From the NCBI RefSeq assembly GCF_900167565.1, contig NZ_FUZV01000001.1, positions 310,001-374,000 on the forward strand: 64,000 nucleotides of DNA. The letters are read 5' to 3'. The notes under the pieces are model-generated. The model was given only the letters and a program-made list of their open reading frames with translations, was not told the DNA's origin and did no database searches. A program made the position numbers and the translations under genes. Within the stretch, counting starts at the first letter, position 1. Every line of letters starts with the position of its first letter. Positions 39,478 to 54,743 of the stretch are shown piece after piece. The DNA comes from Pseudoxanthomonas indica. Its GTDB lineage: Bacteria > Pseudomonadota > Gammaproteobacteria > Xanthomonadales > Xanthomonadaceae.

Positions 39478-40548
39478 TCAACGCGCGCGTTCGGCCAGCC
39501 ACTGGTGGATCGCGCTGGGCACTTCGCGTTGCGCGCGGCTGGAGACATAGATGCCGATGTGCCCCCCCTTGAAGCTCAACTCGGTGTAGTCGTCGGTGCC
39601 CACCAGCCGCGCCAGTGCGCGCGAGGCATCCGGCGGCACCAGGTGATCCTGCTCGGCAAAGATGTTCAGCACCGGCATGGTCACTTCGGCCAGATGCACC
39701 GCCTCACCGTCAATCTCGATGCCGCCGTTGACGAAGCCGTTGCGCTGGTAGAACTGGGTGATGAACTGCCTGAAGGCTTCGCCGGCCAGATCCGGGGAGT
39801 CGAAAATCCACTTCTCCATCCGCAGGAAATCCTCGATTCCCTTGCGGTCATCCAGCAGATCCACCAGGCCCACGTACTTCTGCAGGTTGAGCCTGAACGG
39901 TTTGAGCATCAGGTAGCAGGCATTCATCATGTCGGCCGGCACGTTGCCCATTGCCTGCACGAACAGATCCACATCCATCTCGCGGGTCCAGTGCGAGAGC
40001 ATGTTGTCCGGGGTATGGAAATCCACCGGCGTGACCATGGTGATCAGGTTCTTGATCTTGTCCGGGTTCAAGGCCGCATGGCACAGCGAAAACGCGCCGC
40101 CCTGGCAGATGCCGAGCACGTTGATGGCGTCGCGATCGAACTGTTCGCGCAGGTAATCCACGGCGCCGTCGATGTAGCGCTGGATGTAGTCGCCCAACTC
40201 CAGGAAACGATCCGAACGATCCGGGTAGCCCCAGTCCAGCACGTACACGTCCTCGCCCAGTGCCAGCAGGCCTTTGACCAGCGATCGATCCTCCTGCAGG
40301 TCGACCATGTAGGGACGATTGACCAGCGCATACACGATCAGCAGCGGCACTTTGGCGGTGGCTGGCTTTTCACCGATGAAGCGATACAGCACCACCTTGC
40401 CGTCGCGCCAGACTTCCTGCTTGGCGGTGGCGCCGTAGTGGACGTCTTCCACTTCCGGCAGCGTCTTCAGGCCGGCGGCCAGCTTGTGCTGGGTGGTCAG
40501 GGCTTCCTGCGCCAGTTCGTCGACGCTGATGTTCAAGGGGCTTCTCAT
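39478..40548 (-). CDS. phaC: Class III polyhydroxyalkanoate synthase subunit PhaC
   Basis: 356 residues, the short class III length. The lipase-box-like active site is C148 in INVLGICQGGAFSL; the catalytic Asp301 is in EQDHLVPPDAS and His330 in FKGGHIGIYVS. It polymerises 3-hydroxybutyryl-CoA into PHB. It overlaps phaE by four bases (ATGA), as expected because the two subunits form one enzyme. No phaA or phaB is in the window. Confidence 0.95.
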   Translation of the reverse strand: MRSPLNISVDELAQEALTTQHKLAAGLKTLPEVEDVHYGATAKQEVWRDGKVVLYRFIGEKPATAKVPLLIVYALVNRPYMVDLQEDRSLVKGLLALGEDVYVLDWGYPDRSDRFLELGDYIQRYIDGAVDYLREQFDRDAINVLGICQGGAFSLCHAALNPDKIKNLITMVTPVDFHTPDNMLSHWTREMDVDLFVQAMGNVPADMMNACYLMLKPFRLNLQKYVGLVDLLDDRKGIEDFLRMEKWIFDSPDLAGEAFRQFITQFYQRNGFVNGGIEIDGEAVHLAEVTMPVLNIFAEQDHLVPPDASRALARLVGTDDYTELSFKGGHIGIYVSSRAQREVPSAIHQWLAERAR

Positions 40549-41855
40549 TTACGGCGTCCCTGCTTCTTGCCTGCCTGCTTCTTGTCTTCGTCGCCGGCAT
40601 AACGCGCCACCCAGTCTTTCATCGACACCACCGGCGCGGACTTGCCGGGTTTGGCGGTCGTGGCGGGTTTAGCCACCTTGCCCGGCTTTGCTTCGGCGAC
40701 CGGCGCCGTTGCGGTCCTGCTGGCCGGAGCAGCCGAACGTGCAGCCACGCGCGCTTTGCCGGTGTTCGGCTTCGCTTTGGAGACTTTGACGGCGGCCTTG
40801 CGTTTGTCCGCTGTAGCGCGACGCGGCGCGGCCGTGCGTTTGACGCTGGCCGCGACCCGCTCGCCGGAATCCGCTTCCACCGGACGCTGGCGCGGCGATT
40901 CCTGCACGGGTGCCGCGGCTTTGCGCGCCGGCGCCGCATTGGCCTGCCGCGTTGCCGCTTCCGCCTTGCCGCGCCGCTCCATCCGATGCAGGCGACGTTC
41001 CAGATCGGCAATCTTGCGATAGGCCGAATCCACCTCGGTACGCGTGGGCATGCCCAGCTGCAGGCAGATCTGTTCGATCTCGGTGGTCACCGCCAGGCGC
41101 AGCTGCATCTGCGCATTGGTCAGCGCTCCGTAAACGCGGCGGAACTCGGGCGACAGCGCCACTTCGGCATAGGCCTGCTCGGCAGCGTCAATCCACAGGT
41201 CGAACAGCGCGCGTGCGCTGGTGACCTGCTGGCCCGGCTCGGCGCGCGCGGCCAGCAGACTTTCGAAGCGCGCCAAGGCCAGCTGCGCCACATGCAGCAT
41301 GGTCTGTTCGTAATCGAGCAGGCTGCGCTGGTAATCCTGCTGCGCCTGCGCCAGGCCCTGCCAGCGCTCCTGGTGTTCGCGCATCGGCCCAAAGGTGGGC
41401 AGATGCATCCAGCGCTCGGCTTCGCGCTGCAGGTTGTCGATGTAGGGGCGCACCTGCCGGTACCAGCTGTCGAAACCGCCGCTGCCGCCGCCTTGCAGGC
41501 CGCCGAGGAAATCGCGCCAAGGGCCATGGCCCAGGTCCACGCCCAGCATCTGCTTCCAGGCTTGGGCGACGTCGGCGGCCGAAGCGTCCTGGCCGGCGAA
41601 GCGCGCCGCCAGCTGCTGCATCTGCCCGAACCAGTCGCCACTCTGATGGCGGAAGCGCTGCACGACATCGTCCACACCCGGCGCGCCGCCGGGCACGAGC
41701 TTGGACCACCAGTCCAAGGCCTGTTGCCAGCCTGGCGCCGGGGTGGGCGCAGGCGCGCCGCCACTCCACTGGCGCAGGGCGTCGCCCCAGAGGTTCCAGT
41801 ACTGCCGGGCCATCGCATCGAAATCGCCGGCGCCGGGGGGTGCGTAATCGGCCAT
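40545..41855 (-). CDS. phaE: Class III PHA synthase subunit PhaE with basic tail
   Basis: 436 residues. The first 290 are the PhaE domain (FDAMARQYWNLWGDALRQWS; helical, with EFRRVYGALTNAQMQLRLAV and a coiled-coil-like end at IADLERRLHRMERR). The last 145 are Lys/Ala/Pro-rich and lack hydrophobic structure, ending KKQAGKKQGRRK. PhaE is required for PhaC activity and shapes the granule. The tail resembles histone-H1-like, PhaF-type DNA-binding regions; most PhaE proteins I know of are shorter. Confidence 0.9.
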   Translation of the reverse strand: MADYAPPGAGDFDAMARQYWNLWGDALRQWSGGAPAPTPAPGWQQALDWWSKLVPGGAPGVDDVVQRFRHQSGDWFGQMQQLAARFAGQDASAADVAQAWKQMLGVDLGHGPWRDFLGGLQGGGSGGFDSWYRQVRPYIDNLQREAERWMHLPTFGPMREHQERWQGLAQAQQDYQRSLLDYEQTMLHVAQLALARFESLLAARAEPGQQVTSARALFDLWIDAAEQAYAEVALSPEFRRVYGALTNAQMQLRLAVTTEIEQICLQLGMPTRTEVDSAYRKIADLERRLHRMERRGKAEAATRQANAAPARKAAAPVQESPRQRPVEADSGERVAASVKRTAAPRRATADKRKAAVKVSKAKPNTGKARVAARSAAPASRTATAPVAEAKPGKVAKPATTAKPGKSAPVVSMKDWVARYAGDEDKKQAGKKQGRRK

Positions 41856-41915
41856 GTGTCCTCCGTTTCAACGGATTCTAGCCAGCCCCGGCGTTGCTTG
41901 CATGACGCTGGCGCG

Positions 41916-42530
41916 TCAGGGCTTGGGAATATGCAGGGTCTTGCTGATCATCAGCGTGCCCGACAGCGCATACAGCAGCACCAGCGGATGCAGCAGCCAC
42001 GGCCCCAGGCGCCAGCCGCCCAGCCAGAGTTCGGGGCCGATATGGCCCAGGTACGCGGCCACTGCCAGCACCACCACCAGCAGCAGGCTGGTCGGGATCG
42101 GCGTGCCCTCGAAGTATTTGACCTTGCTGTCCTCGCCGGACAGCGACTCGGCGGTGACGTTGTAGCGCGCCAGGCGGCTGACGCCACACGCCACGAAGTA
42201 GGACAGCACCAGCCAGTCCCAACCGCCCTGCATGCCGCAGGCATAGGCCAGCGCGGCAGGAGCGACACCAAAGGAAATGACATCGGCCAGCGAATCCAGC
42301 TCGCGCCCCAGCACCGAGGCCTGGTTGCGCCAGCGCGCCACGCGCCCGTCGAGCGCATCGAAGATGAAAGCCAGCGGGATCAGCGCCATGCCGATCATCA
42401 GGTCGCGGATGATCCCTTCCTGCAGGAAGCGCATCGCCGCGAACACCGCACCGGTGCCGCAGAACGCGTTGCCGAGGGTGAACCAGTCGGCCAGCTGGAA
42501 ATCGCGGAGCATCGAGAAGTGGCGCGCCAT
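41916..42530 (-). CDS. pssA: CDP-diacylglycerol-serine O-phosphatidyltransferase
   Basis: 204 residues from ATG 42530; GTG 42557 is also possible. CDP-alcohol phosphotransferase motif D-G-x2-A-R-x8-G-x3-D-x3-D is met by FDALDGRVARWRNQ and LGRELDSLADVISFGVAPA. It has about six membrane helices. It makes phosphatidylserine, the precursor of phosphatidylethanolamine. It is upstream of phaE on the same strand with 60 bases between; whether they share a transcript is unclear. Confidence 0.85.
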   Translation of the reverse strand: MARHFSMLRDFQLADWFTLGNAFCGTGAVFAAMRFLQEGIIRDLMIGMALIPLAFIFDALDGRVARWRNQASVLGRELDSLADVISFGVAPAALAYACGMQGGWDWLVLSYFVACGVSRLARYNVTAESLSGEDSKVKYFEGTPIPTSLLLVVVLAVAAYLGHIGPELWLGGWRLGPWLLHPLVLLYALSGTLMISKTLHIPKP

Positions 42531-42625
42531 GACCTTGCCTGCGGATGAGCTGCCCACAGGGTAAGCGCTGGCGGGTGAAGGGTGAAGCGTCGTGGCAGGC
42601 AGGCGCCCTGCGCCCGCCCGCGCGG

Positions 42626-44440
42626 TCAGCGAGGCAGCTGCAGCTGCTCGGCGCTCACCGCACCGGCGCCACGCGGCTGCGCGGCGATCTCGCGATCGCT
42701 GGCCGCGCCCTGCCCGTCCAGCTGCGCGCTGACGCGATCCAGCGCGGCGTACACGTACGGCAGCAACGGCACGTAGCGCGCGCCATACGCCGGCAGCGCA
42801 AGGAAGCCATCGAAGTGCTGCGCGTGCTGCACCTGCCAGTAGCTCACGGCACTGCCCGCCGCCTTGGCCTGGGCCACATAGGGATCGCTGGTGAAAGCCG
42901 GCGGAATCAAACCGTCATCGCGGCCATGCACCACGATGATCGGCAAGCCCTTGCGCGGCATGCCGGCACGCACCTGCGCGATGCCCTGCTGGACGCGACG
43001 TGCCGCGTCATCGCTGCCGCTGTTGAGCGCACGCAGGCACTGCAGGCCGTTGAAGGTGAAATCCGGCGCCGACAATTTGCCGTCGATCAGGCCCACGCCG
43101 GCACCCGGCGGAATGCCCGAGCCATCGGACCACCAGACGCTGCGTTCGGCCGGGGTGGCCGCGCGCGCGCGGGTGTCCGCATTCTGTGCGGCAAAGGAGA
43201 AGCCACACGGATGCTCGGCCACGCCGAAGCGTCCGTAGGCCGACGCGTAGGTCACCGCGATCGCACGCCACAGATCGAAACCGGTACTGAGCGCGCCCGC
43301 GGTGAGTGCGGCGTCGGTCCAGCCTTTGGCGCGCATCAGTTCGTAAGCCGAAGCGGCCTGCGCCTGGGGGGAATCACCGCTGATCAGGCCTGCCGACTTC
43401 AGCGACGCGCAGCGCGCCGTCCAGAACGGTTCCACCTGCGCACGCAGCGGCGGCTGTGGCAGCGCATCGGCCGGCAGATGCAGCTGCGCACACGGCATCA
43501 GCAAGGCCGCTTCGGTGGTGTAGTCATACAGCGAAGGCGCGCCTTCCACCTGCACGTTCGGCTCGCCCGCCACCACCGCATCCAGCCAGTCGCCTTCCAG
43601 TTCGGCCGCGCGCAGCACCGCGCCACCGCCATTGGAAATGCCGACCGCAATCACCCGGGTATTGTCGAAGCGGAACGGCGCCGCCTGCGGATAGGCCTGT
43701 GCGAGCATGGCCAGGCCGAACTCGGCCGCCTGCTTGATATGCCGGCCCCAGTCGGCCTCGGGATTGTCCTGCGAATGCGCATGCTTGAACGCCACGCCGC
43801 TGGCGCCGACCGGCGCATCCGGCGCGAACGCCAGCTCACCCTGCTCCAGCGCGACGCTGCGACCGTCTTCGCCCACACCCACCTGCGCATCCAGATCGAA
43901 GTAGTCGGTGCCGGCGCCCTTGTCGGTGTACACCACCGCACAGCCCTTCGGCAGCGCCCACGCCCCGGCCACGGCAATGGCGCCGTACACGCCACGCGAG
44001 CCGGACGACGCCGTCACCACCAGGCAACGCTTGCCCGTGTCGAAGTTGTCCGGCGCCTGCAGCACCACCCGGTGCGGCTGCCGGGCCTGCGGCAAGCGCA
44101 GCAAGGCACTGTATTCGCGGCCCGGCGCGCCGGCCACGCTGCCATAGACCTGGCCGTAACCGCCGGTGAGCGAAAGATCGGCGATGCCACGCCAGTTGTT
44201 CCAGATCGCGCGCCGGCGCAGTTCCAGCGCAGTCGGCGCGGCCGCATCGGCAAACGCGGGCGGGGTCATCGCGCGCAAGCCGTCCAGCCCCAGTCCGGCG
44301 CTGAGCAGATCGTCACTGCCGCGATGCTCGGTGATGCGCTGTGCTTGATACACGGTCTGCTCCTGCGGGGTCCGCGACGGCATGCTGCTGCAGGCCGCCA
44401 ATGCCAGGGCCAGCGTGGCCATCAGGCTGTTGCGCATCAT
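42626..44440 (-). CDS. D-3-hydroxybutyrate oligomer hydrolase, lipoprotein
   Basis: 604 residues. Lipoprotein signal with lipobox LALAAC (Cys17). The family pattern is RGIADLSLTGGYGQVYGSV, LVVTASSGSRGVYGAI, VVYTDKGAGTDYFDLD and the nucleophile region VGISNGGGAVL (Ser269). It cleaves soluble 3-hydroxybutyrate oligomers to monomers after depolymerase action. The signal suggests an extracytoplasmic position. It is divergent from 3-hydroxybutyrate dehydrogenase, with a shared control region of 151 bases. Confidence 0.9.
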   Translation of the reverse strand: MMRNSLMATLALALAACSSMPSRTPQEQTVYQAQRITEHRGSDDLLSAGLGLDGLRAMTPPAFADAAAPTALELRRRAIWNNWRGIADLSLTGGYGQVYGSVAGAPGREYSALLRLPQARQPHRVVLQAPDNFDTGKRCLVVTASSGSRGVYGAIAVAGAWALPKGCAVVYTDKGAGTDYFDLDAQVGVGEDGRSVALEQGELAFAPDAPVGASGVAFKHAHSQDNPEADWGRHIKQAAEFGLAMLAQAYPQAAPFRFDNTRVIAVGISNGGGAVLRAAELEGDWLDAVVAGEPNVQVEGAPSLYDYTTEAALLMPCAQLHLPADALPQPPLRAQVEPFWTARCASLKSAGLISGDSPQAQAASAYELMRAKGWTDAALTAGALSTGFDLWRAIAVTYASAYGRFGVAEHPCGFSFAAQNADTRARAATPAERSVWWSDGSGIPPGAGVGLIDGKLSAPDFTFNGLQCLRALNSGSDDAARRVQQGIAQVRAGMPRKGLPIIVVHGRDDGLIPPAFTSDPYVAQAKAAGSAVSYWQVQHAQHFDGFLALPAYGARYVPLLPYVYAALDRVSAQLDGQGAASDREIAAQPRGAGAVSAEQLQLPR

Positions 44441-44499
44441 CGTCTGTCCTGGATCTGTCCGCAGAATGCCGTGACGTTAGCCTGTGCCCCTGCCAGCGT

Positions 44500-44515
44500 C
44501 ATCGTACTTTGGTAC
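44500..44515. promoter_or_regulatory. GTAC-N4-GTAC motif upstream of bdhA
   Basis: CATCGTACTTTGGTAC. Two GTAC half-sites 8 bases apart start-to-start, 76 bases before the bdhA ATG and 59 bases before the oligomer hydrolase ATG on the other strand. The same motif with the same flank occurs at 53235. It is the probable binding site of the LuxR-type regulator encoded at 45362. Confidence 0.6.
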
Positions 44516-44591
44516 CAAGTGGTCCGGGCCCGGCCTTGCTACGCTAGTCGCCGTGCCTGCGCACCCCACCCGCACGGCTTCCGGAGACATC

Positions 44592-45356
44592 ATGCAGACC
44601 CATTCCATCCTCATCACCGGCGCAGCCAGCGGCATCGGCGCCGGCGTGGCCAGCTTGCTGGCCGAATCCGGCCGCCACGTGATCATCAGCGATCTCAACC
44701 TGGACGCCGCGCAGGCGGTGGCCGCGAAGATCGTCGCCGACGGCGGCTCGGCCGAGGCGGTGCAACTGGACGTCAGCTCGGAAGCCAGCATCACCGCCGC
44801 GCTGGCGGCGATCTCGCGCCCGGTCGACGTGCTGGTCAACAACGCCGGCCTGCAACATGTCTCGCCGCTGGAAGACTTCCCGATGGAGAAATGGGACTTC
44901 CTGATCCAGGTGATGCTGGTCGGCGTGGCGCGCCTGACCCGGGCCCTGCTGCCGGGCATGCGCCAGCGCGGCTTTGGCCGGATCATCAACATCGGCAGCA
45001 TCCATGCGCTGGTGGCCAGCCCGTACAAGAGCGCCTACGTGGCGGCCAAGCATGGCCTGGTCGGCTTTTCCAAAGTGATCGCGCTGGAAACCGCCGACAG
45101 CGACATCACCATCAACACCATCTGCCCCAGCTACGTGAAGACACCGCTGGTGGACAAGCAGATCGCCGATCAGGCGCGCACCCGCGGCATTCCCGAAGCC
45201 GAAGTGGTCAGCCAGATCATGCTCAAGCCGATGCCCAAGGGCGTGTTCATCGAAATGGACGAACTGGCCGGCATCACCGCCTTCCTGTCCTCGCCGGCCG
45301 CGCGCAACATCACCGGCCAGACGATCGTGGTCGACGGCGGCTGGACCGTACAGTAA
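44592..45356 (+). CDS. bdhA: 3-hydroxybutyrate dehydrogenase
   Basis: 254-residue classical short-chain dehydrogenase from ATG 44592. NAD motif TGAASGIGAG, NNAGLQHVSPLEDF, catalytic Ser136 (NIGSIHAL), Tyr149 and Lys153 (YVAAK), and the 3HBDH-type QHVSPLEDFP substrate loop. It oxidises D-3-hydroxybutyrate to acetoacetate with NAD, the step after oligomer hydrolysis. It is followed after 5 bases by the response regulator gene. Confidence 0.93.
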   Translation: MQTHSILITGAASGIGAGVASLLAESGRHVIISDLNLDAAQAVAAKIVADGGSAEAVQLDVSSEASITAALAAISRPVDVLVNNAGLQHVSPLEDFPMEKWDFLIQVMLVGVARLTRALLPGMRQRGFGRIINIGSIHALVASPYKSAYVAAKHGLVGFSKVIALETADSDITINTICPSYVKTPLVDKQIADQARTRGIPEAEVVSQIMLKPMPKGVFIEMDELAGITAFLSSPAARNITGQTIVVDGGWTVQ

Positions 45357-45361
45357 GCCTG

Positions 45362-46030
45362 ATGCCGACCCTGCTGATTGCCGACGACCATCCGCTGTTC
45401 CGCGCCGCCCTGCGTGGCGCCGCGGCCGACGCCGTGGCGGCGCTGAAGGTGCTGGAAGCCGAATCGCTGGACGGCGTGCTCGCCGCGCTGGAAGCGCATG
45501 ACGACATCGACCTGGTGCTGCTGGATCTGCACATGCCCGGCAACCACGGCCTGGCCGGGCTGGCGGCAATCCGCGCGCAGTTCCCGGCGGTGGCGGTGGT
45601 GGTGGTCTCGGCCAACGACGACCCGCGCGTGGTCCGCCGCGCCCTCGACCATGGCGCCGCCGGCTACCTGCCCAAGAGCGCCGGCCTGGACGACCTGCGC
45701 GACGCCATCCGCAGCGTGCTCGCCTGCGAACAATGGCTGCCGGCCTCGTTGCGCGCCACGGTGGCACGCGCGCAATCCTCGCAACACGACGCCGACCTGG
45801 CCGCGCGCCTGGCCAGCCTGTCGCCGCAGCAGTTCCGGGTACTGACCCTGGTCGCCCAGGGCCTGTTGAACAAACAGATTGCCGATCGCCTGGACGTGCA
45901 GGAGCGCACGGTCAAGGCGCATCTGTCGGCCATTTTCGATCGCCTGAGCGTACGCAACCGCACCCAGGCCAGCGTGATCCTGCGCGAGCTGGAACTCAGC
46001 GACCCGGCGCGTCAGATCGAAGCCCTGTAA
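45362..46030 (+). CDS. LuxR-type response regulator (CrbR/ErdR-like)
   Basis: 222 residues from ATG 45362. Receiver domain with phospho-acceptor Asp55 in LVLLDLHMPG, acidic pair ADD at 7-9 and Lys105 in GYLPKSAG. The C-terminal LuxR helix-turn-helix is LSPQQFRVLTLVAQGLLNKQ then IADRLDVQERTVKAHLS. The partner kinase is most likely the SSS-domain hybrid kinase at 47375. It is co-oriented with bdhA and only 5 bases after it. Confidence 0.9.
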   Translation: MPTLLIADDHPLFRAALRGAAADAVAALKVLEAESLDGVLAALEAHDDIDLVLLDLHMPGNHGLAGLAAIRAQFPAVAVVVVSANDDPRVVRRALDHGAAGYLPKSAGLDDLRDAIRSVLACEQWLPASLRATVARAQSSQHDADLAARLASLSPQQFRVLTLVAQGLLNKQIADRLDVQERTVKAHLSAIFDRLSVRNRTQASVILRELELSDPARQIEAL

Positions 46031-46109
46031 AGCGACGCTCCGGCGCCCATGCCGGTGGCGCGACCCGGGTGCTTGCCAGAGGAAGCTGACTGCCCTGACC
46101 CGCCGGTCT

Positions 46110-46372
46110 ACTTGTCCACACGGCATGTGGATGGAAATTCGACAAACATGTGGATAACCATCGGCAGCCTTTGCGGCACAAGGCTGTCAACAAGGTTGGC
46201 GAATTTTTCACCATAGTGTCATCAATGCAGTTCCACGCGGTGGAACCTGTTTGTGACAGCGAAAGCAGGGTTTTCCACAGCCCATGTGGATGCTTGTTGG
46301 GCAAACATGTGGATAAGCATGGAATCGCCAACGGCGACAAGCCTGTCAAGCGGGTTGGCTAGTTTTTGACCA
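46110..46372. repeat. 104-bp direct duplication carrying six DnaA-box-like sites
   Basis: Copies at 46110-46213 and 46269-46372, period 159. Each copy has, in order, a forward box (TTGTCCACA at 46112; TTTTCCACA at 46271), an inverted box (TGTGGATGG at 46126; TGTGGATGC at 46285) and a perfect inverted box TGTGGATAA (46149; 46308), then a conserved CTGTCAA and GGTTGGC tail. A palindrome GTTCCAC-GCG-GTGGAAC sits between them at 46230-46246. The 417-base gap 46031-46447 lies between two convergent stops and holds no supported gene. Confidence 0.75.
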
Positions 46373-46447
46373 GAACAAAATCGCTTGACGTAATGCCGAA
46401 GTGCACGCTCCGGTTGCATCGCTCGCACGCGACGCCCGCCGCCGGAC

Positions 46448-46936
46448 TCAGATCCGCGAGTACTGCCAGGACACCATCTTGCCGTCGCGGTACGGCATGA
46501 CGCCGTGGAAGCCGCGGGCATCGTCATCAAAGACCAGCGGAAGGAAGTGGCGATCACCGTCCCACAGGGGCAGTTCGAGAATCCTGTCCACCGGCACCCA
46601 TTCGAGGGTGCCTTCGGGATTGCTTTGGTAGGGGGTGCCGGTCCATTCGGTGATGAGGAAGATGAAGCCGAGCCAGTCTTCGCCGTGCTTGCCGAAGCCG
46701 GGCCAGCTGATGGTGCCGCGCAGGGTCAGCTCAGTGCAGTCGATGCCGGCTTCTTCCTGGATCTCCCTGCGCATGCCGGCCACCACGTCTTCGTCGGCTT
46801 CCAGTTTTCCGCCCAGGCCGTTGTACTTGCCCAGGTGCAGGTCGCCCGGGCGTGCGTTGCGGTGAATCAGCAGGGCTTGTTGGCGATCTTTGGAGAGGAT
46901 GTAGCCGAGGGTGGCGACGATGGGGGTGTAGGGCAT
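46448..46936 (-). CDS. NUDIX hydrolase, MutT-like
   Basis: 162 residues with a complete Nudix box: GGKLEADEDVVAGMRREIQE then EAGI. The C-terminal part (EGTLEWVPVDRILELPLW, GDRHFLPLVF) resembles 8-oxo-dGTP diphosphatase of the NUDT1/MutT group, which cleans oxidised nucleotides. The exact substrate is not decided. It is convergent with the response regulator gene. Confidence 0.85.
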   Translation of the reverse strand: MPYTPIVATLGYILSKDRQQALLIHRNARPGDLHLGKYNGLGGKLEADEDVVAGMRREIQEEAGIDCTELTLRGTISWPGFGKHGEDWLGFIFLITEWTGTPYQSNPEGTLEWVPVDRILELPLWDGDRHFLPLVFDDDARGFHGVMPYRDGKMVSWQYSRI

Positions 46937-47017
46937 TTTCTTGGTAACCGAGCGCTGGAGTTTGCGTGTGGATCTGCATTGTGACGCGAAATGCTTAAGC
47001 GGGTTGGTGGCTTGGGG

Positions 47018-47122
47018 GCGGGGTCAGGCCCCTCGAAACAGGGCCTGGAATCCACATGGCCTCTACCGGACACTCTCCTGGTAAGGGCTCCAGTCCCTGT
47101 TTCGAGGGGCCTGACCCCGCCA
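47018..47122. repeat. Palindromic repeat, copy R1
   Basis: Perfect 27-bp stem with arms 47018-47044 and 47096-47122, and a 51-base interior that starts CCTGGAATCCACATGGCCTC and ends GGGCTCCAG. It is the first half of a composite repeat in the 438-base gap 46937-47374. No gene is supported in that gap. Confidence 0.85.
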
Positions 47123-47221
47123 GGACAGAACACCTTCGTTCCATTGAAAGCAGGTGGTCTGCTTGTCGCTTTTGCCATGGCTCGGCTTGTGCTGTTCGAT
47201 CAGCCCGCAAGATTTGTCGAG

Positions 47222-47328
47222 AGTGGGAGCAGACCCTGCGCAACCGGGACTGGAGCCCTTACACGTTGAGTTTCAGATCGAGGCCATGTGGATTCCAGGC
47301 GCGGTTGCGCAGGGTCTGGTCCCACTCA
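47222..47328. repeat. Palindromic repeat, copy R2 (inverted relative to R1)
   Basis: 26-bp arms (47222-47247 and 47303-47328) with one mismatch. The interior reads the R1 interior on the other strand (GGACTGGAGCCCTTA ... GGCCATGTGGATTCCAGG). The arm sequence differs from R1 but is still self-complementary. Confidence 0.85.
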
Positions 47329-47374
47329 CAAGCAGCCCAGAGCCCTGCGCTCTTCGCCTTGACCTGAAGAGCAC

Positions 47375-50300
47375 TCACCGCACAGAAGCCATCATCCGGT
47401 CCAGCACCGACTTCAAAGCCAACGGACGCACCGGCTTGGCGAGCAACGACAGTTCCGCATCCAGCACCGCACGACGAACGACATCCGTCTGGTCGGCGGT
47501 GAGAATCAGCGTCGGCCGCGCGCCAAAGCGATCACTCAAACGCTGCCACAACGCCACCCCCGTATCACCATCATCCAGGTGGTAATCGAACAGCCAGACA
47601 TCGGCGGCCTGCTCGCCATGAGCGTGATCCGCGGCCACACCCTCGCCCACCGCGACGACATCGCAGCCCCACCCTTCCAGCGTGCTGCGCAAAGCGGACA
47701 ACGCCAACGGATCATTGTCCACCGCCAGCACCCGGCGCCCAGCCAGACCCGCGCGCGCCAGGCCCGGGGTGGGTGCGGCAGCATGCTGGAGCGGTGTCTG
47801 TGCGCGCTTCAGGCTGACACTGAAGTTGGAACCGCGCCCAGGCTGGCTGCGCAGATCCAACGGCGCCTGCAGCAGGCATGCAATGCGATCCGCGATCGAC
47901 AAGCCCAGCCCCAGGCCTTGCCCGCCCGCGTCTTCGCCACGACGGAATTCCTCGAAGATCACCTGGCGATCCTGCTCGGCGATCCCCGGCCCCGTATCCA
48001 GCACCTCCACGCGCAGCCGCCCGCCTTCCCGGCGCACGCCCAGCACCACGCTGCCCTGCGCGGTATAGCGGATCGCATTGGCGAGGAAGTTCTGCAGGAT
48101 GCGCCGCAACAGTTGCGGATCGCTGTGCACCCACGCGCGGGTCGGACGCAGACGCAGGCGCAGGCCGTGTTCGGCGGCCAGCACGCCGAATTCCGAGGCC
48201 AGCGGTTCCAGCACTTCGGCCAGGGGAAAATCGCGCGGCTCGGGCACCAGGCCACCGGCTTCCAGCCGCGACATGTCGAGCAGTCCCGACAGCAGATCCG
48301 AGGTGGAATCCAGCGCGCCGCGGATCTGCCGCAGACCGTCGCGCTGATGCGCGTCGGGCAGCTGCTGCGCCAGCGCGTCGGTGAACAGATGCGCGGCATG
48401 CAGGGGTTGCAGCAGATCGTGGCCGACCGCGGTCAGGAAGCGGCTCTTGGCATCGTTGGCGTGTTCGGCTTCGCGCTTGGCGGTTTCCAGCAGTTCGGTG
48501 CGTTCGGCGACGCGCTGCTCCAGGGTTTCGTTGGCGCGCATCAGGTCGCGCTCGGCATGGCGCGAAGCGGTCACGTCGGTGTAGGTGGCGACGAAGCCAC
48601 CGCCGGGCATCGGATTGCCGCGAATTTCCACGATGCTGCCGTCGGGAAACACGCGCTCGGTCAGGTGCGCCGTGCCGGCGCGCATGTAAGCCAGGCGCCG
48701 TTCGAGCGCGCGTTCGTCATGGCCACGGTGCGGCATGCGCTGCAGCGCCCAGCGGGTCAGATCGGCGATCGGCCGGCCCACTTGCAGGAACTCGTCGGGG
48801 AAGCCGAACAACTCCACGTAGCGCCGGTTCCAGGCGACCAGGCGTTGTTCGCGATCGACCACGCTGATGCCCTGGCTCATGTTCTGCAAGGCCGCGCCGA
48901 GCACCTGCTGGTTGAAGCGCAGATCCTGCGAGGCCTCGCCGACAATCGCCGCCACCGTTTCCAGATCCGCGTTCTCGCGGCGCGCGGCGTCCAACAGCAG
49001 ACGCGCCGAGGCCGAACCGAGCACCGCCGCCAGTTCGCGCTCCAACTGCGCTTCAATCGGCAACGGCACCGGACCCACGCGCGGCGCGCCGGCCAGCACT
49101 TCATCCACCCGTTCGCGCGGCAGGAAGCGGCGACCGGCGTCCCACAGGCTCTGCCGATCCAGATTGCGCAGGCTGCGATACGGCGTATCGCGACGCCAGG
49201 CCATCGCCAGCAGGGTCACCACGGTGCCCACGAACAGGCTCACCCCGACTGCCCGCGCCAGCGGACTCCAGCCGCTGAGGCCGAACAGGTTGAGCGGCGA
49301 CAGCCAGGCCAGGCCGAACGGTCCTTCGCGCAGCCAGATCGGATCCAGCTGGTTGGCACTGAGCAGGGTCGGCACCAGGATCACCCACGCCCACGCCAGG
49401 AACGCGGCGACCACGCCCAGGGTGGCGGCACGTGGCGGCGTCTGTGGTCGCCACACGGCAAATGCCAGCACCGGCGCCAGCGTGCCCAGCGCCGAAAACG
49501 ACACCGCGCCCACGTCGGCCAGCGCGTCGTTGGTGGTCACCAGCCGGCTGTAGGCCCAGGCGAACAGCATGATCACGGCGATGCCGCCGCGCCGCAGCGC
49601 CAGCAGCGCGCCGCGTTGATCGCCGCCATCGCGACGCGACCACACGCCGCGCAGCAGGCCGGGGGCAAACCAGTGATTGCCGATCATCAGACTCAGGGTG
49701 AGTGTGCTGACCACCACCATGCCGGTGGCCGCACTCAAGCCACCCAGAAAAGCGAACAGGGCCAGGCCCTGGTGCCCTTGCGCGAACGGCAGCGCCAGCG
49801 CGTACATGTCGGAAGGAACGCTGTCGCCGAGCAGTGCGCTGCCGGCGCGCGCCAACGGCAGGCCGGGCAGCGCGATCAGGATCAGGTACAGCGGAAACAG
49901 CCAGCGCGCCGTGCGCACGTGGCTTTCATCGCGGCATTCGACCACGCCGACGTGGAACTGATGCGGCAGGATGAACATCGCCAGCGCGCCCAGCAGCACC
50001 AGCGGCGCGAAGCCGCCGGCTGAAGGCGGCGTCGGCAGCGGCGGCAGCGCCGGCATGGCGCGTACTTCCAGCCAGACGAACAGGCCCAGCGCCAGCATCG
50101 CCGCCAGCTTGAACAGCGACTCGAACGCCATCGCCAGCACCAGCCCGCGGTTGTGTTCGGCCGCGCTGGCCCGGCGGGTGCCGAACAACATCGCGAACAA
50201 GGCCATCGCCAGCGCCACGTACAGGCCGCTGTCGCGCCAGATCGGCTGCAGGCCGTCGCTGCCCTGCGTGCTCGAGGTGAGCATCGCAAAGCTCATCGTC

Positions 50301-50710
50301 ACCGCCTTGAGCTGCAGTGCGATGTACGGAATCAGGCCCAGCGCGGCGACCAGGGTGACGGTGGCGGCCAGGCGCACATCCTTGCCCAGCCGCGTGGCGA
50401 TCAGATCCGCCAGCGAGGTGGCGTTGGTCTCGCGCGCCAGTCGCACCAGCCGCATCATGAAGGCGACCGCCAGCGCATAGAACAGGATCGCGCCGAGGAA
50501 CGTGGGCGGCAGCGGCCAGCCATAGCGTGCGGCCTGGGTCACCGTGCCGTAGAAGGTCCACGACGTGCAGTGCACCGCCAGCGACAGGGCGTAGATGTGG
50601 CGCCAGTGTTGCGCCAGCACCGCCGGACGGCGCTCGCCATGCAGGGCGATGCCGAACATCAGGCCCAGCCAGGCCAGGCTGGCAAGCGCGACCAGCCAGA
50701 AGTTCAGCAT
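47375..50710 (-). CDS. Hybrid sensor kinase with symporter-like domain (CrbS/MxtR-like)
   Basis: 1111 residues. About 1-560 is a sodium/solute-symporter-type membrane region with some 13 helices; a PAS domain lies near 605-710 (QNMSQGISVVDREQRLVAWN); HisKA with His764 in AVGHDLLQPLHA; HATPase near 865-975 (GGQGLGLGLSIADRIA); C-terminal receiver with Asp1042 in WLFDYHLDDGD. CrbS-type kinases with this layout control acetate/short-chain carbon use through a LuxR-type partner. The partner candidate is at 45362. The position inside the PHB module suggests it senses hydroxybutyrate or acetate status. Confidence 0.88.
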   Translation of the reverse strand: MLNFWLVALASLAWLGLMFGIALHGERRPAVLAQHWRHIYALSLAVHCTSWTFYGTVTQAARYGWPLPPTFLGAILFYALAVAFMMRLVRLARETNATSLADLIATRLGKDVRLAATVTLVAALGLIPYIALQLKAVTMSFAMLTSSTQGSDGLQPIWRDSGLYVALAMALFAMLFGTRRASAAEHNRGLVLAMAFESLFKLAAMLALGLFVWLEVRAMPALPPLPTPPSAGGFAPLVLLGALAMFILPHQFHVGVVECRDESHVRTARWLFPLYLILIALPGLPLARAGSALLGDSVPSDMYALALPFAQGHQGLALFAFLGGLSAATGMVVVSTLTLSLMIGNHWFAPGLLRGVWSRRDGGDQRGALLALRRGGIAVIMLFAWAYSRLVTTNDALADVGAVSFSALGTLAPVLAFAVWRPQTPPRAATLGVVAAFLAWAWVILVPTLLSANQLDPIWLREGPFGLAWLSPLNLFGLSGWSPLARAVGVSLFVGTVVTLLAMAWRRDTPYRSLRNLDRQSLWDAGRRFLPRERVDEVLAGAPRVGPVPLPIEAQLERELAAVLGSASARLLLDAARRENADLETVAAIVGEASQDLRFNQQVLGAALQNMSQGISVVDREQRLVAWNRRYVELFGFPDEFLQVGRPIADLTRWALQRMPHRGHDERALERRLAYMRAGTAHLTERVFPDGSIVEIRGNPMPGGGFVATYTDVTASRHAERDLMRANETLEQRVAERTELLETAKREAEHANDAKSRFLTAVGHDLLQPLHAAHLFTDALAQQLPDAHQRDGLRQIRGALDSTSDLLSGLLDMSRLEAGGLVPEPRDFPLAEVLEPLASEFGVLAAEHGLRLRLRPTRAWVHSDPQLLRRILQNFLANAIRYTAQGSVVLGVRREGGRLRVEVLDTGPGIAEQDRQVIFEEFRRGEDAGGQGLGLGLSIADRIACLLQAPLDLRSQPGRGSNFSVSLKRAQTPLQHAAAPTPGLARAGLAGRRVLAVDNDPLALSALRSTLEGWGCDVVAVGEGVAADHAHGEQAADVWLFDYHLDDGDTGVALWQRLSDRFGARPTLILTADQTDVVRRAVLDAELSLLAKPVRPLALKSVLDRMMASVR

Positions 50711-50828
50711 ACGAACCGGACGCCGACGGGCGTGTGCTCAATGCTGCGAAGTTTGTCGCCAATCCCCATCGCCGAAGGATAAATCAAAGTGCGAAAGTTC
50801 TTGCGGGGGCAAGGAGTCCACGTCAGCT

Positions 50829-50937
50829 CCCTCCCCCGCGCGCGGGGGAGGGTTGGGGTGGGGGCCGGCCGAAGACAGGATCTCCACGGCGTTGTGTCCT
50901 GCGCCGAGGGCGCCCTCATCCGGCGCTGCGCGCCACC
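50829..50937. repeat. REP-like palindromic repeat pair
   Basis: Perfect 24-bp palindrome CCCTCCCCCGCG / CGCGGGGGAGGG at 50829-50852, followed by GTTGGGGTGGGGG, then near the end CCCTCATCCGGCGCTGCGCG and CACCTTCTC. This is the widely dispersed type of repeat seen in Xanthomonadaceae intergenic regions. It sits between the divergently ended receptor gene stop (50941) and the kinase start. Confidence 0.7.
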
Positions 50938-50940
50938 TTC

Positions 50941-53148
50941 TCAGAAATCCCAGCGTGCCGTCAGCGACACCTGGCGCGGCGGACCATAGAAGCCGGTCAG
51001 CACGCCATAGGCCGGGATGTTGTAACCGGTGGTGCGGAATTCCTTGTCGGCCAGGTTGGTGCCCTGCAGCGACAGCGACCAGGCATTGTCGATCTTCCAG
51101 ATCACGCCGGCGTTGACCAGGCCATAGCCGTCCTGCTTGATCGCCGGGCTCAGATCCGTGGTCGGCCACACTTCGCTCTGGTAGGCGTAGCTGACGCGCG
51201 CGGACAGGTTGCCGCCACTGGCCAGGTCGGTGCGGTATTCCAGGTTGAGCGCACCGGAGAAATCCGGGGCGTTGGTGAACTTCTGGGTGTCGGCGATATC
51301 GACCCCGCTGCTGATGAACTCGTCGTACTTGGCGTCCAGCCAGGCCAGGTTGCCGCTGATCATCCAGTTGCGCGTCGGCAGGTACTGGTACTCCACTTCC
51401 AGGCCTTCCACGTGGCCCTTGCCGGCGTTGGTGAAGTCGCCGAAGAAGCTCTGGCTGCCATTGGGAAGCGTGTAGCTGGTGAATACCGACAGCTGGATAT
51501 CTTCGTATTTGTTGTAGAAGTAGGCCAGGTTGAGGAACATCCGCTGATCCAGCAGCGACATCTTGCTGCCGATCTCGTAGCTGTCGACCTGCTCGTCATC
51601 GAACGGCTCGCCCGAACGCGGCACCGCGGTGGTGTTGGCGCGGATGTTGTAGCCGCCGGACTTGAAGCCGCGCGTGGCCAGCGCGTAGACCATGATGTCG
51701 GGCGTGATCTGGTAGTCGATGGAGACCTTCGGCGAGAAGTTCTTGAAGTTCACCGTCTTGTCGAAATTGGCCGCCGTGCCCCAGCTCGTGCTGTAGCTCA
51801 GGTCGGTGTAGAAGCGGTTGAGCGCGATGGCGTGCTTGTCTTCGTCGGTATAGCGCGCACCGACGTCGAGCTTCCACTTCTCGGCCAGATCGAAGGTCCA
51901 GTCGGCATAGACCGCATAGCTCTTGGTGTTGACCACGCCCTGGGTATCGCCGTACAGCGGGTTGGTCAGCGCCGGCGGCAGTGCCGGATTCCAGAAATGG
52001 TTGAGCACCTGGCCACCGGCATCGCCATCGAATGCGTACAGGCCCATCACGCCACGCGCGCGACCGCCGCCGTCGTAGTTGACCTGTAGTTCGTTGCTGA
52101 GCTGGTTGTCGTTGTAGAACGCACGCACGTCGACCAGGGTCAGCGGGGTGGTGTCGAAGTCGATGTTGGTCTCGGTATCGGACTCGCGCTTGGCCAGCAC
52201 GTACTTCAAGGTCCAGTCCTCGCTGGCGCGCCAGTTGACGGTGACCGAGCCGCCCTTCATGTCGGTGTCGTTGACATTGCGCATGCCGCTGCGGATGTCG
52301 TAGCGATCCGACAGCGGCGGATAGGCCGGCGCCAGCGGATTGGCCGCCAGCATCTGCGCGCCGCGCATGCCGGACTTGTCACCCATCCAGTCGAAGGCGA
52401 ACTGCACGTCGACGTTGTCGCCGGCATAGGCGCCCAGTTGCAGGCGGGCGGCGTTGATTTCCTTGTCGCTGACTTCCTGGCCGTTGGTGGTGTTCTCACC
52501 GTAGCCGTCGCGATTCATGCTGGCCACCGCCACGCGCGCACGCAGGCCGCTGTCGGCGCCGCCAATCGCACCGCCCAGACCGGCCTTGACGTCGAGCTGG
52601 TTGTAGCTGCCGACCGTCACCGAGGCGAAGCCTTCGGGTTCGGTGCCCAGGCCGCGCGAGACGTACTTGATGGCGCCGCCGATGGTGTTCTTGCCGTACA
52701 GCGTGCCCTGCGGGCCGCGCAGCACTTCGATGCGCTCGACATCGAACACATCGAGCAGGGCGCCCTGCGGACGGGCGATGTAGACGTCATCCAGGTAGAT
52801 GCCCACGCCCGGATCGACGCCCCACAGCGGATCGGCCTGGCCGATGCCGCGCAGGTAGGCGGTGACCGTGCTGGTGGAACCGCGCGCGGCGTAGATGGTC
52901 AGGTTGGGCACCTGCGTATCCAGATCGCCCAGGTCGCGCACATTCAACTTGTCCAGCGCCTCGGAGGTGAACGCGGTCACCGCCACCGGCACGTCCTGCA
53001 GGGTTTCCTCGCGCTTGCGCGCAGTCACCGTGACCGAGTCCAGCGTGGTGGCTTGCGTGCCGGTGGTGGCGGCTTCCTGCGACCAAACCGGTGCGGTGGT
53101 GGCCAACAAGACAACGGCAATGGCCGTGCTCAAAGACTTGCGCTTCAT
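50941..53148 (-). CDS. TonB-dependent receptor
   Basis: 735 residues from ATG 53148. Signal peptide ending PVWSQEA; TonB-box-like TLDSVTVTARKREETLQDVP; plug with RGPQGTLYGKNTIGGAIKYV and the PDVGIYLDDVYIARP-like segment; barrel ending SLTARWDF with terminal Phe. No STN domain, so it is a simple transporter. It is divergent from the GntP permease and shares its control region, suggesting a role in taking up hydroxybutyrate oligomers or related compounds. Confidence 0.9.
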   Translation of the reverse strand: MKRKSLSTAIAVVLLATTAPVWSQEAATTGTQATTLDSVTVTARKREETLQDVPVAVTAFTSEALDKLNVRDLGDLDTQVPNLTIYAARGSTSTVTAYLRGIGQADPLWGVDPGVGIYLDDVYIARPQGALLDVFDVERIEVLRGPQGTLYGKNTIGGAIKYVSRGLGTEPEGFASVTVGSYNQLDVKAGLGGAIGGADSGLRARVAVASMNRDGYGENTTNGQEVSDKEINAARLQLGAYAGDNVDVQFAFDWMGDKSGMRGAQMLAANPLAPAYPPLSDRYDIRSGMRNVNDTDMKGGSVTVNWRASEDWTLKYVLAKRESDTETNIDFDTTPLTLVDVRAFYNDNQLSNELQVNYDGGGRARGVMGLYAFDGDAGGQVLNHFWNPALPPALTNPLYGDTQGVVNTKSYAVYADWTFDLAEKWKLDVGARYTDEDKHAIALNRFYTDLSYSTSWGTAANFDKTVNFKNFSPKVSIDYQITPDIMVYALATRGFKSGGYNIRANTTAVPRSGEPFDDEQVDSYEIGSKMSLLDQRMFLNLAYFYNKYEDIQLSVFTSYTLPNGSQSFFGDFTNAGKGHVEGLEVEYQYLPTRNWMISGNLAWLDAKYDEFISSGVDIADTQKFTNAPDFSGALNLEYRTDLASGGNLSARVSYAYQSEVWPTTDLSPAIKQDGYGLVNAGVIWKIDNAWSLSLQGTNLADKEFRTTGYNIPAYGVLTGFYGPPRQVSLTARWDF

Positions 53149-53234
53149 GGGTCTCCCCTCCCTCAAGGAATGACGCGAAGGCGGACACATGCCGCCGATG
53201 CTGGGGAAGGCTATGGGGACCGCGAACGAAGCGG

Positions 53235-53250
53235 CATCGTACCTTCGTAC
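53235..53250. promoter_or_regulatory. GTAC-N4-GTAC motif between receptor and permease genes
   Basis: CATCGTACCTTCGTAC, followed by AGTGG as at 44516-44523 (CAAGTGG). It is 95 bases before the permease ATG and 86 bases before the receptor ATG on the other strand. Same motif as at 44500. Confidence 0.6.
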
Positions 53251-53345
53251 AGTGGGAGCGTGGAAAGCCGCTGCGGAATACTCGCCGCACCTGATCCGGC
53301 CCGGCCGGACGCACCCCTACCCGGCGCCAGGCCGAGGAGCGTTGG

Positions 53346-54743
53346 ATGTCTTTCCTGATCGTGTTGGCCGCGCTGTGCTTCCTGATGTTCGTGGCCTACC
53401 GCGGCTACAGCGTGATCCTGTTCGCGCCGATCGCGGCGCTGGGCGCGGTGCTGCTGACCGATCCTTCGCTGGTGGCGCCGATGTTCACCGGCTTGTTCAT
53501 GGACAAGATGGTCGGCTTCCTGAAGCTGTATTTCCCGGTGTTTTTGCTGGGCGCGGTGTTCGGCAAGCTGATTGAGATCTCCGGCTTCTCCAAGGCCATT
53601 GTGGCCGGCACCATCCGCCTGGTCGGCCGGCAGCGGGCGATGCTGTCGATCGTGCTGGTGTGCGCGCTGCTGACCTATGGCGGGGTGTCGCTGTTCGTGG
53701 TGGTGTTTGCGGTGTATCCGTTTGCCGCGGAAATGTTCCGCCAGAGCGATATTCCCAAGCGGCTGATCCCGGGCACCATCGCGCTGGGTGCGTTTACCTT
53801 CACCATGGATGCGCTGCCGGGTACGCCGCAGATCCAGAACATCATCCCCACCTCGTTCTTCGGCACCACTGCCTGGGCCGCGCCGGTGCTGGGTGTGGTG
53901 GGCGCAGTCTTTATCCTGTTGCTGGGCCTGAGCTATCTGGAATGGCGGCGCCGGGTGGCATTGCGGGTGGGCGAAGGCTACGGCGGTGAGCTGCGCAACG
54001 AACCCGAGCCCTTCCGCGGCGACAAGCTCGCGCATCCGTTGATTGCACTGCTGCCGCTGGTGTTGGTGGGGGTGGCGAACTTCCTGCTGGGCCGGTGGAT
54101 TCCGGGGTGGTATGGCGAGAGCCACGCGTTCGTGCCGGCGGTGATCGGCAACCCGGCGCCGGTGACGCAGGAAGTGTCCAAGGTCGCGGCGATCTGGGCG
54201 GTGCAAGGCGCGTTGTTGATCGGCATCGCCAGTGTGCTGCTGTTTGCGTGGAAGCCGGTGGTGGCCAGTTTTGCCGAGGGCACGCGCAATGCGATTGGTG
54301 GCGCGCTCCTGGCGTCGATGAATACCGCTTCGGAGTATGGCTTTGGCGCGGTGATTGCCGCCCTGCCCGGCTTCCTGGTGGTGGCTAATGCCTTGCAGGC
54401 GATCCCCAATCCGCTGGTCAACGAGGCGATCTCGGTGACGGCGCTGGCGGGTATTACGGGCTCGGCCTCGGGCGGTATGAGCATTGCGTTGGCGGCGATG
54501 GCCGAGAGTTTCATCGCCAATGCGCAGGCGGCGGGGATTCCGATGGAGGTGTTGCATCGGGTCGCTTCGATGGCCTCGGGCGGCATGGATACGTTGCCGC
54601 ATAACGGAGCGGTGATTACGCTATTGGCGGTCACTGGTTTGAGTCATCGGCAGTCTTACAAGGACATTTTTGCCATTACGGTGATCAAGACCTTGGCGGT
54701 GTTTGTGGTGATCGGGCTGTTTTATGCGACCGGGTGGGTTTGA
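53346..54743 (+). CDS. GntP-family permease, probable hydroxybutyrate transporter
   Basis: 465 residues, about 12-14 membrane helices. GntP landmarks are GGVSLFVVVFAVYPFAAEMF, TMDALPGTPQIQNIIPTSFF and the late ASGGMDTLPHNGAVITLL. The family moves gluconate and other small organic acids with protons; members in PHB contexts are annotated as D-beta-hydroxybutyrate permeases. The bdhA-type enzyme and the shared motif upstream support hydroxybutyrate as substrate. This is inference. Confidence 0.82.
   Translation: MSFLIVLAALCFLMFVAYRGYSVILFAPIAALGAVLLTDPSLVAPMFTGLFMDKMVGFLKLYFPVFLLGAVFGKLIEISGFSKAIVAGTIRLVGRQRAMLSIVLVCALLTYGGVSLFVVVFAVYPFAAEMFRQSDIPKRLIPGTIALGAFTFTMDALPGTPQIQNIIPTSFFGTTAWAAPVLGVVGAVFILLLGLSYLEWRRRVALRVGEGYGGELRNEPEPFRGDKLAHPLIALLPLVLVGVANFLLGRWIPGWYGESHAFVPAVIGNPAPVTQEVSKVAAIWAVQGALLIGIASVLLFAWKPVVASFAEGTRNAIGGALLASMNTASEYGFGAVIAALPGFLVVANALQAIPNPLVNEAISVTALAGITGSASGGMSIALAAMAESFIANAQAAGIPMEVLHRVASMASGGMDTLPHNGAVITLLAVTGLSHRQSYKDIFAITVIKTLAVFVVIGLFYATGWV

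Follow-up and report, generated by a model that had tools for sequence, protein, structure and literature searches.

A predicted operator shared by two divergent promoter pairs of a putative 3-hydroxybutyrate module in Pseudoxanthomonas indica, and its candidate regulator, a paralogue of the acetate switch

In a 64,000-nucleotide stretch of the Pseudoxanthomonas indica genome (contig NZ_FUZV01000001.1, positions 310,001 to 374,000; hereafter the window), a LuxR/NarL-type response regulator very probably controls two divergent promoter pairs through one short site, the inverted repeat GTAC-N4-GTAC. One copy, site A, lies between the genes for a 3-hydroxybutyrate (3HB) oligomer hydrolase and a 3HB dehydrogenase (bdhA), and the other, site B, between those for a TonB-dependent receptor and a permease. 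The sites, their conservation and position, their tie to the regulator, the separate group of this regulator in a tree and the contrast with acs, the target of the CrbS/CrbR acetate switch, were all obtained by computation. A role in hydroxybutyrate use fits the gene content and synteny, and the regulator and its kinase seem to descend from an old duplication of the acetate switch and to recognise a slightly altered DNA word. The features on which the argument turns, in coordinates of the window, are:

42626 to 44440, minus strand: 3HB-oligomer hydrolase, 604 aa (PF10605, 443.8 bits)
44500 to 44515, plus strand: site A, predicted operator CATCGTACTTTGGTAC, between hydrolase and bdhA, with the 12-mer core GTACTTTGGTAC at 44504-44515
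44592 to 45356, plus strand: bdhA, 3-hydroxybutyrate dehydrogenase (TIGR01963, 350.8 bits, cut-off 307.05)
45362 to 46030, plus strand: LuxR/NarL-type response regulator (PF00072 and PF00196), starting 5 bases past bdhA
47375 to 50710, minus strand: hybrid histidine kinase with an SLC5-type N-terminus, PAS, HisKA, HATPase and receiver (Pfam kinase domains)
50941 to 53190, minus strand: TonB-dependent receptor (PF00593, PF07715), followed after 230 bases by the kinase gene, which has the same orientation
53235 to 53250, plus strand: site B, predicted operator CATCGTACCTTCGTAC, between receptor and permease, with the 12-mer core GTACCTTCGTAC at 53239-53250
53346 to 54743, plus strand: GntP-type permease (gntP), the family name being taken from the sources' labels in near relatives

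Both 16-base motifs named in the original prediction are present at 44500-44515 and 53235-53250, and the distances that it gave to the plus-strand starts are correct, site A ending 76 bases before bdhA and site B 95 bases before gntP. They are the sole matches to the motif in the window with up to two mismatches allowed, and none of 100 shuffles held two matches. Across the genome, the 16-mer pattern CATCGTACNTTSGTAC has 2 perfect matches, sites A and B, and 4 further places with 2 mismatches; a wide regulon of the strict motif was rejected, a third perfect match not being found genome-wide. The proposed genome scan for the bare palindrome GTAC-N4-GTAC gave 18 places in 3.96 Mb versus 64 for the reversed control, so that the palindrome is rarer than its control and not enriched. 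CGTAC-N4-GTAC occurs at 11 places including the two in the window, and the other 9 all lie under some open reading frame; this overlap decides nothing, because the real sites likewise lie under open reading frames in this GC-rich genome.

To judge by their relatives, both motifs are genuine sites. Relatives of the regulator were taken from named genomes, with the best 80 kept, and their loci were then searched for the proteins of the window. The scan for site A covered 26 of 34 Xanthomonadales-type loci and that for site B 15 loci, and 12 distant loci were scanned as well. At site A the repeat was exact in 18 loci, had one mismatch in 6 and two in one (L064), so that 24/26 carried at most one mismatch; at site B it was exact in 5, with one mismatch in 9 and two in the last (14/15 with at most one). 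The distant, marine-type loci were exact in 11/12 and had one mismatch in 1/12. Random 150-base windows from the same loci, real sites included, matched exactly in 0.5%, with at most one mismatch in 2.7% and with at most two in 25%. The spacer sequence outside the sites is far less conserved. The order hydrolase, bdhA or regulator, kinase, receptor and permease is repeated in Lysobacteraceae and Rhodanobacteraceae; in the loci of Alteromonadaceae, Idiomarinaceae and Pseudohongiellaceae, permease and receptor are divergent and next to the regulator. Hydrolase, bdhA and permease accompany the regulator in most loci. In the comparison of intergenic regions that had been suggested, both sites recurred at matching promoters. 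The shared AGTGG continuation fared less evenly: the alignment of relatives ruled it out as a conserved component of site A, whereas at site B AGTG or AATG is common directly after the repeat.

Some variation of the sites was seen beside these counts. One half of site B reads GGAC in place of GTAC in eight loci (L035, L037, L039, L044, L045, L048, L050 and L066), and one half of site A reads GTCC in several genera; the weakening of one half-site appears regular by lineage. In Stenotrophomonas maltophilia (L052:8225-10657), the palindrome GTACCTAGGTAC separates a regulator of this group from a divergent gene for an AMP-binding enzyme, and the hydrolase was not found in that locus. The same palindrome precedes the regulator in L053, L242 and L247. 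The L052 locus may represent a branch that has been retargeted.

The site also follows the regulator across genomes. Among 149 genomes of the family, the 15-mer ATCGTACNTTSGTAC was found at 80 places in 75 genomes and its reversed control once, while the regulator was found in 100 at E <= 1e-66; 73 genomes had both, 2 the 15-mer only, 27 the regulator only and 47 neither (Fisher p 5e-17, a value that ignores shared ancestry). The regulator is no more than 12 kb away at 75 of the 80 places, and a third 15-mer in one relative (G117, L218) falls inside two overlapping open frames. Each of the two genomes with the 15-mer only has a 58% relative adjoining the site (G041, L181; G033, L221). All 27 genomes with the regulator only were examined at the hydrolase or regulator promoter, where the 12-mer was exact in 8, had one mismatch in 10 and two in 4.

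The hydrolase was detected at E <= 1e-40 in 107/149 family genomes, 11 of them without the regulator at the threshold given above; a class-wide search found it in 5/185 genomes, 2 of them outside the family. A plasmid search returned distant relatives only. The set of 11 includes G033 and G041, the two genomes with the 15-mer only; G135 was left out and G007 stops within the gene, and three genomes (G009, G086 and G112) proved to contain a regulator at 53-54% and a site with one mismatch. In G060 the hydrolase and bdhA are kept, and the regulator and kinase were found neither beside them nor in the genome at threshold; in an alignment with three same-genus sisters, one half of its site is destroyed and the other carries a single changed base, with nearby bases kept. 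In G028 both regulator and site are absent at the hydrolase, and both are present in four same-genus sisters. G073 has neither, and the incomplete genome G120 has a two-mismatch match, the regulator not being found. Five hydrolases stand apart from the regulator (second copies in G033, G100 and G126, and those of other families in G164 and G179); none of the five has an exact site, and two have a one-mismatch match (L311 and L314), of which L311, in a genome with the regulator elsewhere, may be weakly targeted. All in all, the site tracks the regulator rather than the hydrolase, a tie supported by the joint loss of site and regulator in G060 and G028 while their sisters keep both.

The position of the sites relative to the predicted promoters is also regular. 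Four -10-like elements are predicted in the window:

44540 to 44545, plus strand: TACGCT facing bdhA, 25 bases past the 12-mer
44474 to 44479, minus strand: TAACGT facing the hydrolase, 25 bases from the 12-mer
53277 to 53282, plus strand: AATACT facing gntP, 27 bases past the 12-mer
53208 to 53213, minus strand: TAGCCT facing the TonB receptor, 26 bases from the 12-mer

Offsets were compared in the window together with 23/26 site A loci (L061, L063 and L064 left out) and 13/15 site B loci (L046 and L066 left out). Facing the hydrolase, TANNNT stands at offset 25 in 21/24 promoters and at 26 in 3 more; facing bdhA or the regulator, it stands at 25 in 9/24, at 26 in 2 more and at 36 in 5 more. 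Facing the receptor, offset 26 is found in 9/14 B sites (27 in 3 more) and in 12/12 distant sites. On the permease-facing side, ATACT stands at offset 27 in 6/14 B sites, and ACAAT was judged by eye to occupy a like place in the distant sites. With the -10 element set at -12 to -7, the 12-mer spans about -48 to -37. The -35 slots of the window (AAGTGG, GTGGGA, ATGACG and ATGCCG) are unlike TTGACA. The placement is close to that of the CrbR site at acs of P. fluorescens, which lies at -52 to -36 and is required for activation (PMC5715377). The regulator presumably acts by activation.

The original prediction had identified the pair with CrbS/CrbR, and here only the family likeness stood: the kinase has the same domain order and the regulator is of the LuxR type, but the pair is, on its sequence, a paralogue of CrbS/CrbR and not CrbS/CrbR, since an acs-linked regulator and a related kinase exist elsewhere in the genome. 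This second regulator, 51% identical, lies directly downstream of acs, and the further kinase, at 43-46% identity, is found within a few kilobases. Against the NCBIfam ErdR model, which is also the top model of the window regulator, the acs-linked paralogue scores 236 bits and the window regulator 217, both under the cut-off of 390. The expectation that acs would carry GTAC-N4-GTAC failed. The acs upstream region of this genome holds TTTACGACCAAGGTCTAAGC, which is of the ACTU type, and among the 30 acs places of the family with a locus, out of 40 listed, GAC-N4-GTC was found upstream in 26/30 and TAC-N4-GTA in 0/30. In an unrooted tree of 85 regulators, 8 of them acs-linked, 42 hydroxybutyrate-type regulators split from 43 CrbR-type and other rows with support 99/97 (L049, L062, L065, L109 and L096, a row with a stop, were omitted). 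Residue 180 is Q in 40/42 hydroxybutyrate-type regulators versus S in 42/43 others, and residue 182 is R or T in 41/42 versus A in 43/43. By alignment with NarL, in which we assume the place of the recognition helix, both residues stand at the start of that helix, and we hypothesize that they set the difference in operator.

CrbS/CrbR, or MxtR/ErdR, as the acetate switch is named in Vibrio and Pseudomonas, shares with the present system the kinase domain order, a NarL/LuxR-type regulator and an inverted-repeat operator upstream of the core promoter (PMC5715377). It differs in its operator, GAC-N4-GTC versus TAC-N4-GTA, which is one symmetric base pair apart, and in its target, acs rather than 3HB genes; the regulators fall into separate tree groups and differ at residues 180 and 182. 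Because the operator word differs, one cell could run the acetate and hydroxybutyrate switches in parallel, and the sequence argues against a role of the window regulator in controlling acs.

Taken as a whole, the following proposal seems to us probable. The regulator, partnered by the kinase, would bind the GTAC-N4-GTAC repeat in both divergent spacers and, once bound, would activate the promoters on either side, four in all, from a position immediately ahead of the -35 slot. We infer the binding, the phosphorylation, activation and not repression, and the ligand, which would be 3HB or a product. The regulon of this acetate-switch paralogue would be a 3HB module made up of the outer-membrane receptor and permease at site B and the hydrolase and dehydrogenase at site A. 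It would include the regulator itself and probably the kinase, whose gene is downstream of the receptor gene, giving a positive loop: if the bdhA-regulator and receptor-kinase runs are co-transcribed, as we suppose, both halves of the two-component system are downstream of their own sites. The earlier idea of one regulator acting on two divergent promoters of a polyhydroxybutyrate module is upheld as far as a shared operator is tied to the regulator by co-occurrence, position and decay on loss.

Several observations weigh against this interpretation. The site was absent when site A was scanned in L063; two-mismatch matches, found in a quarter of the random windows, carry little weight; and the neglect of shared ancestry bears on the co-occurrence test. 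The named loci and the 149 family genomes partly coincide, and the two sets of counts cannot be treated as independent. In the remaining 5/27 genomes with the regulator only, the hydrolase was not found beside the regulator in the stretch examined and no site lies upstream of the regulator; in 2 of these (G088 and G114) the hydrolase is elsewhere, with only a two-mismatch match there. No TANNNT peak faces the permease. In G022 and G067 an exact site stands at the hydrolase and the regulator match (61%) is located elsewhere. These last two genomes, together with the fact that binding is a prediction, would suit a different regulator binding the site, the response regulator being merely a neighbour. 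We regard this as very unlikely, as in G060 and G028 the site has gone along with the regulator, in distant loci it accompanies the regulator despite a rearranged gene order, and site form and regulator group change together relative to acs and CrbR.

It is unlikely, too, that the operator is read correctly and the module does not serve 3HB, for instance that an iron chelate is the substrate of the receptor or that the signal is another short acid. The top NCBIfam model of the receptor is a siderophore type, at 187 bits below the cut-off of 223.5, and the Stenotrophomonas maltophilia regulator faces an AMP-binding enzyme gene in a locus where the hydrolase was not found; nevertheless, in most loci the regulator is accompanied by hydrolase, bdhA and permease. 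Repressors are also known to use divergent shared operators, but a regulator that mainly represses at the sites until relieved by a signal is quite unlikely, given a 12-mer beside the -35 slot, covering roughly -48 to -37 relative to the predicted start, -35 slots unlike TTGACA and activation by CrbR from nearly the same position (PMC5715377). That the acetate switch itself has been extended to the polyhydroxybutyrate genes is highly improbable: the identical kinase domain order, the ErdR model and an inverted repeat near -40 would agree with it, whereas the acs-linked second regulator, the ACTU-type site at acs, the lack of TAC-N4-GTA in all 30 acs upstream regions and the separate tree groups do not. 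Chance similarity of two short sequences, for which one could cite the 18 genome places of the bare palindrome, is excluded by the conservation counts (24/26 and 14/15 with at most one mismatch; 75/149 genomes versus one control match), and its probability is negligible.

A wider reading of the proposed 3HB regulon comes close to being evenly balanced, although we lean slightly away from it. A duplication of the acetate switch predating the split of Xanthomonadales from the Alteromonas/Idiomarina type, or spread by transfer, would have led to dedicated sensing of 3HB or its oligomers; the paralogues would be insulated since two recognition-helix changes (S-E-A to Q-E-R or Q-E-T) shifted the operator from GAC to TAC; the TonB receptor would import 3HB oligomers; and the locus would be one of bacterial polyester utilisation. 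If the regulon is real, 3HB use in a large bacterial group gains a regulator, an operator and a set of target genes. The genome would then offer a natural paralogue pair whose DNA words are almost identical and for which two residues are candidate determinants of specificity, through which the insulation of two-component systems at the level of DNA becomes directly testable. If the receptor does take up oligomers, an outer-membrane route would be named for fragments of a biodegradable polyester.

The system is probably a variant within the SLC5/STAC kind of two-component system, of which CrbS/R, CbrA/B, PrlS/R and RpuS/R have been studied (PMC9100948). An SLC5-type membrane domain is joined to a histidine kinase, with a LuxR-type regulator encoded nearby, and none of the models matched a STAC domain between symporter and kinase. 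The symporter-like domain is not recognised by Pfam, but residues 7-449 of the kinase match a solved chain, 10ed_A, named 'histidine kinase' (E 4.3e-41; profile E 5.4e-102), and the kinase is 37-41% identical to CrbS-type kinases. CbrA/CbrB of Pseudomonas has a different type of regulator and a different role. Its kinase is likewise of the SLC5 type (PMC9100948, PMC5715377). RpuS/RpuR of Sinorhizobium fredii, which responds to pyruvate, sets a precedent: this second SLC5/STAC pair coexists in one genome with CrbS/R, has a carbon source and a motif of its own, and is reported to show little crosstalk; however, RpuR requires an imperfect direct repeat upstream of mctP (PMC9100948), while the repeat here is inverted and lies at 3HB genes. 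A case against any simple rule is the report that ErdR did not bind the P. putida acsA-I promoter, which is without the ACTU motif (PMC8402216). The available parts of PMC8402216, PMC9927353 and PMC5436829 do not mention hydroxybutyrate, and in listings of the open-licence literature we found no report of a two-component system for 3HB.

Further features concern the genes around the sites. The N-terminus of the hydrolase is, we presume, lipoprotein-like. The permease had no Pfam or NCBIfam match at the thresholds used, despite thousands of close relatives, and among the near relatives that give it the GntP name the named ones are mostly Pseudoxanthomonas. Three genes lie beyond the hydrolase:

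41916 to 42557, minus strand: CDP-alcohol phosphatidyltransferase-like gene (PF01066), between hydrolase and phaE
40545 to 41855, minus strand: phaE, class III polyhydroxyalkanoate (PHA) synthase subunit (TIGR01834), possible distal member of the site A minus-strand run
39478 to 40548, minus strand: phaC, class III PHA synthase subunit (TIGR01836), possible distal member of the same run

Since the genes from hydrolase to phaC lie head to tail with small gaps on the minus strand (39478-44440), expression of the PHA synthase genes might depend on site A as well; strand and spacing likewise suggest that the phosphatidyltransferase-like gene may belong to the regulon. The spacer past the regulator gene (46149-46317) holds two TGTGGATAA strings and one TTTTCCACA, which we take to resemble DnaA boxes. 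In the spacer between a Nudix gene and the kinase gene (47015-47330), long inverted-looking repeats, GGGGTCAGGCCCCTCGAAACAGGG and its complement, were spotted by eye.

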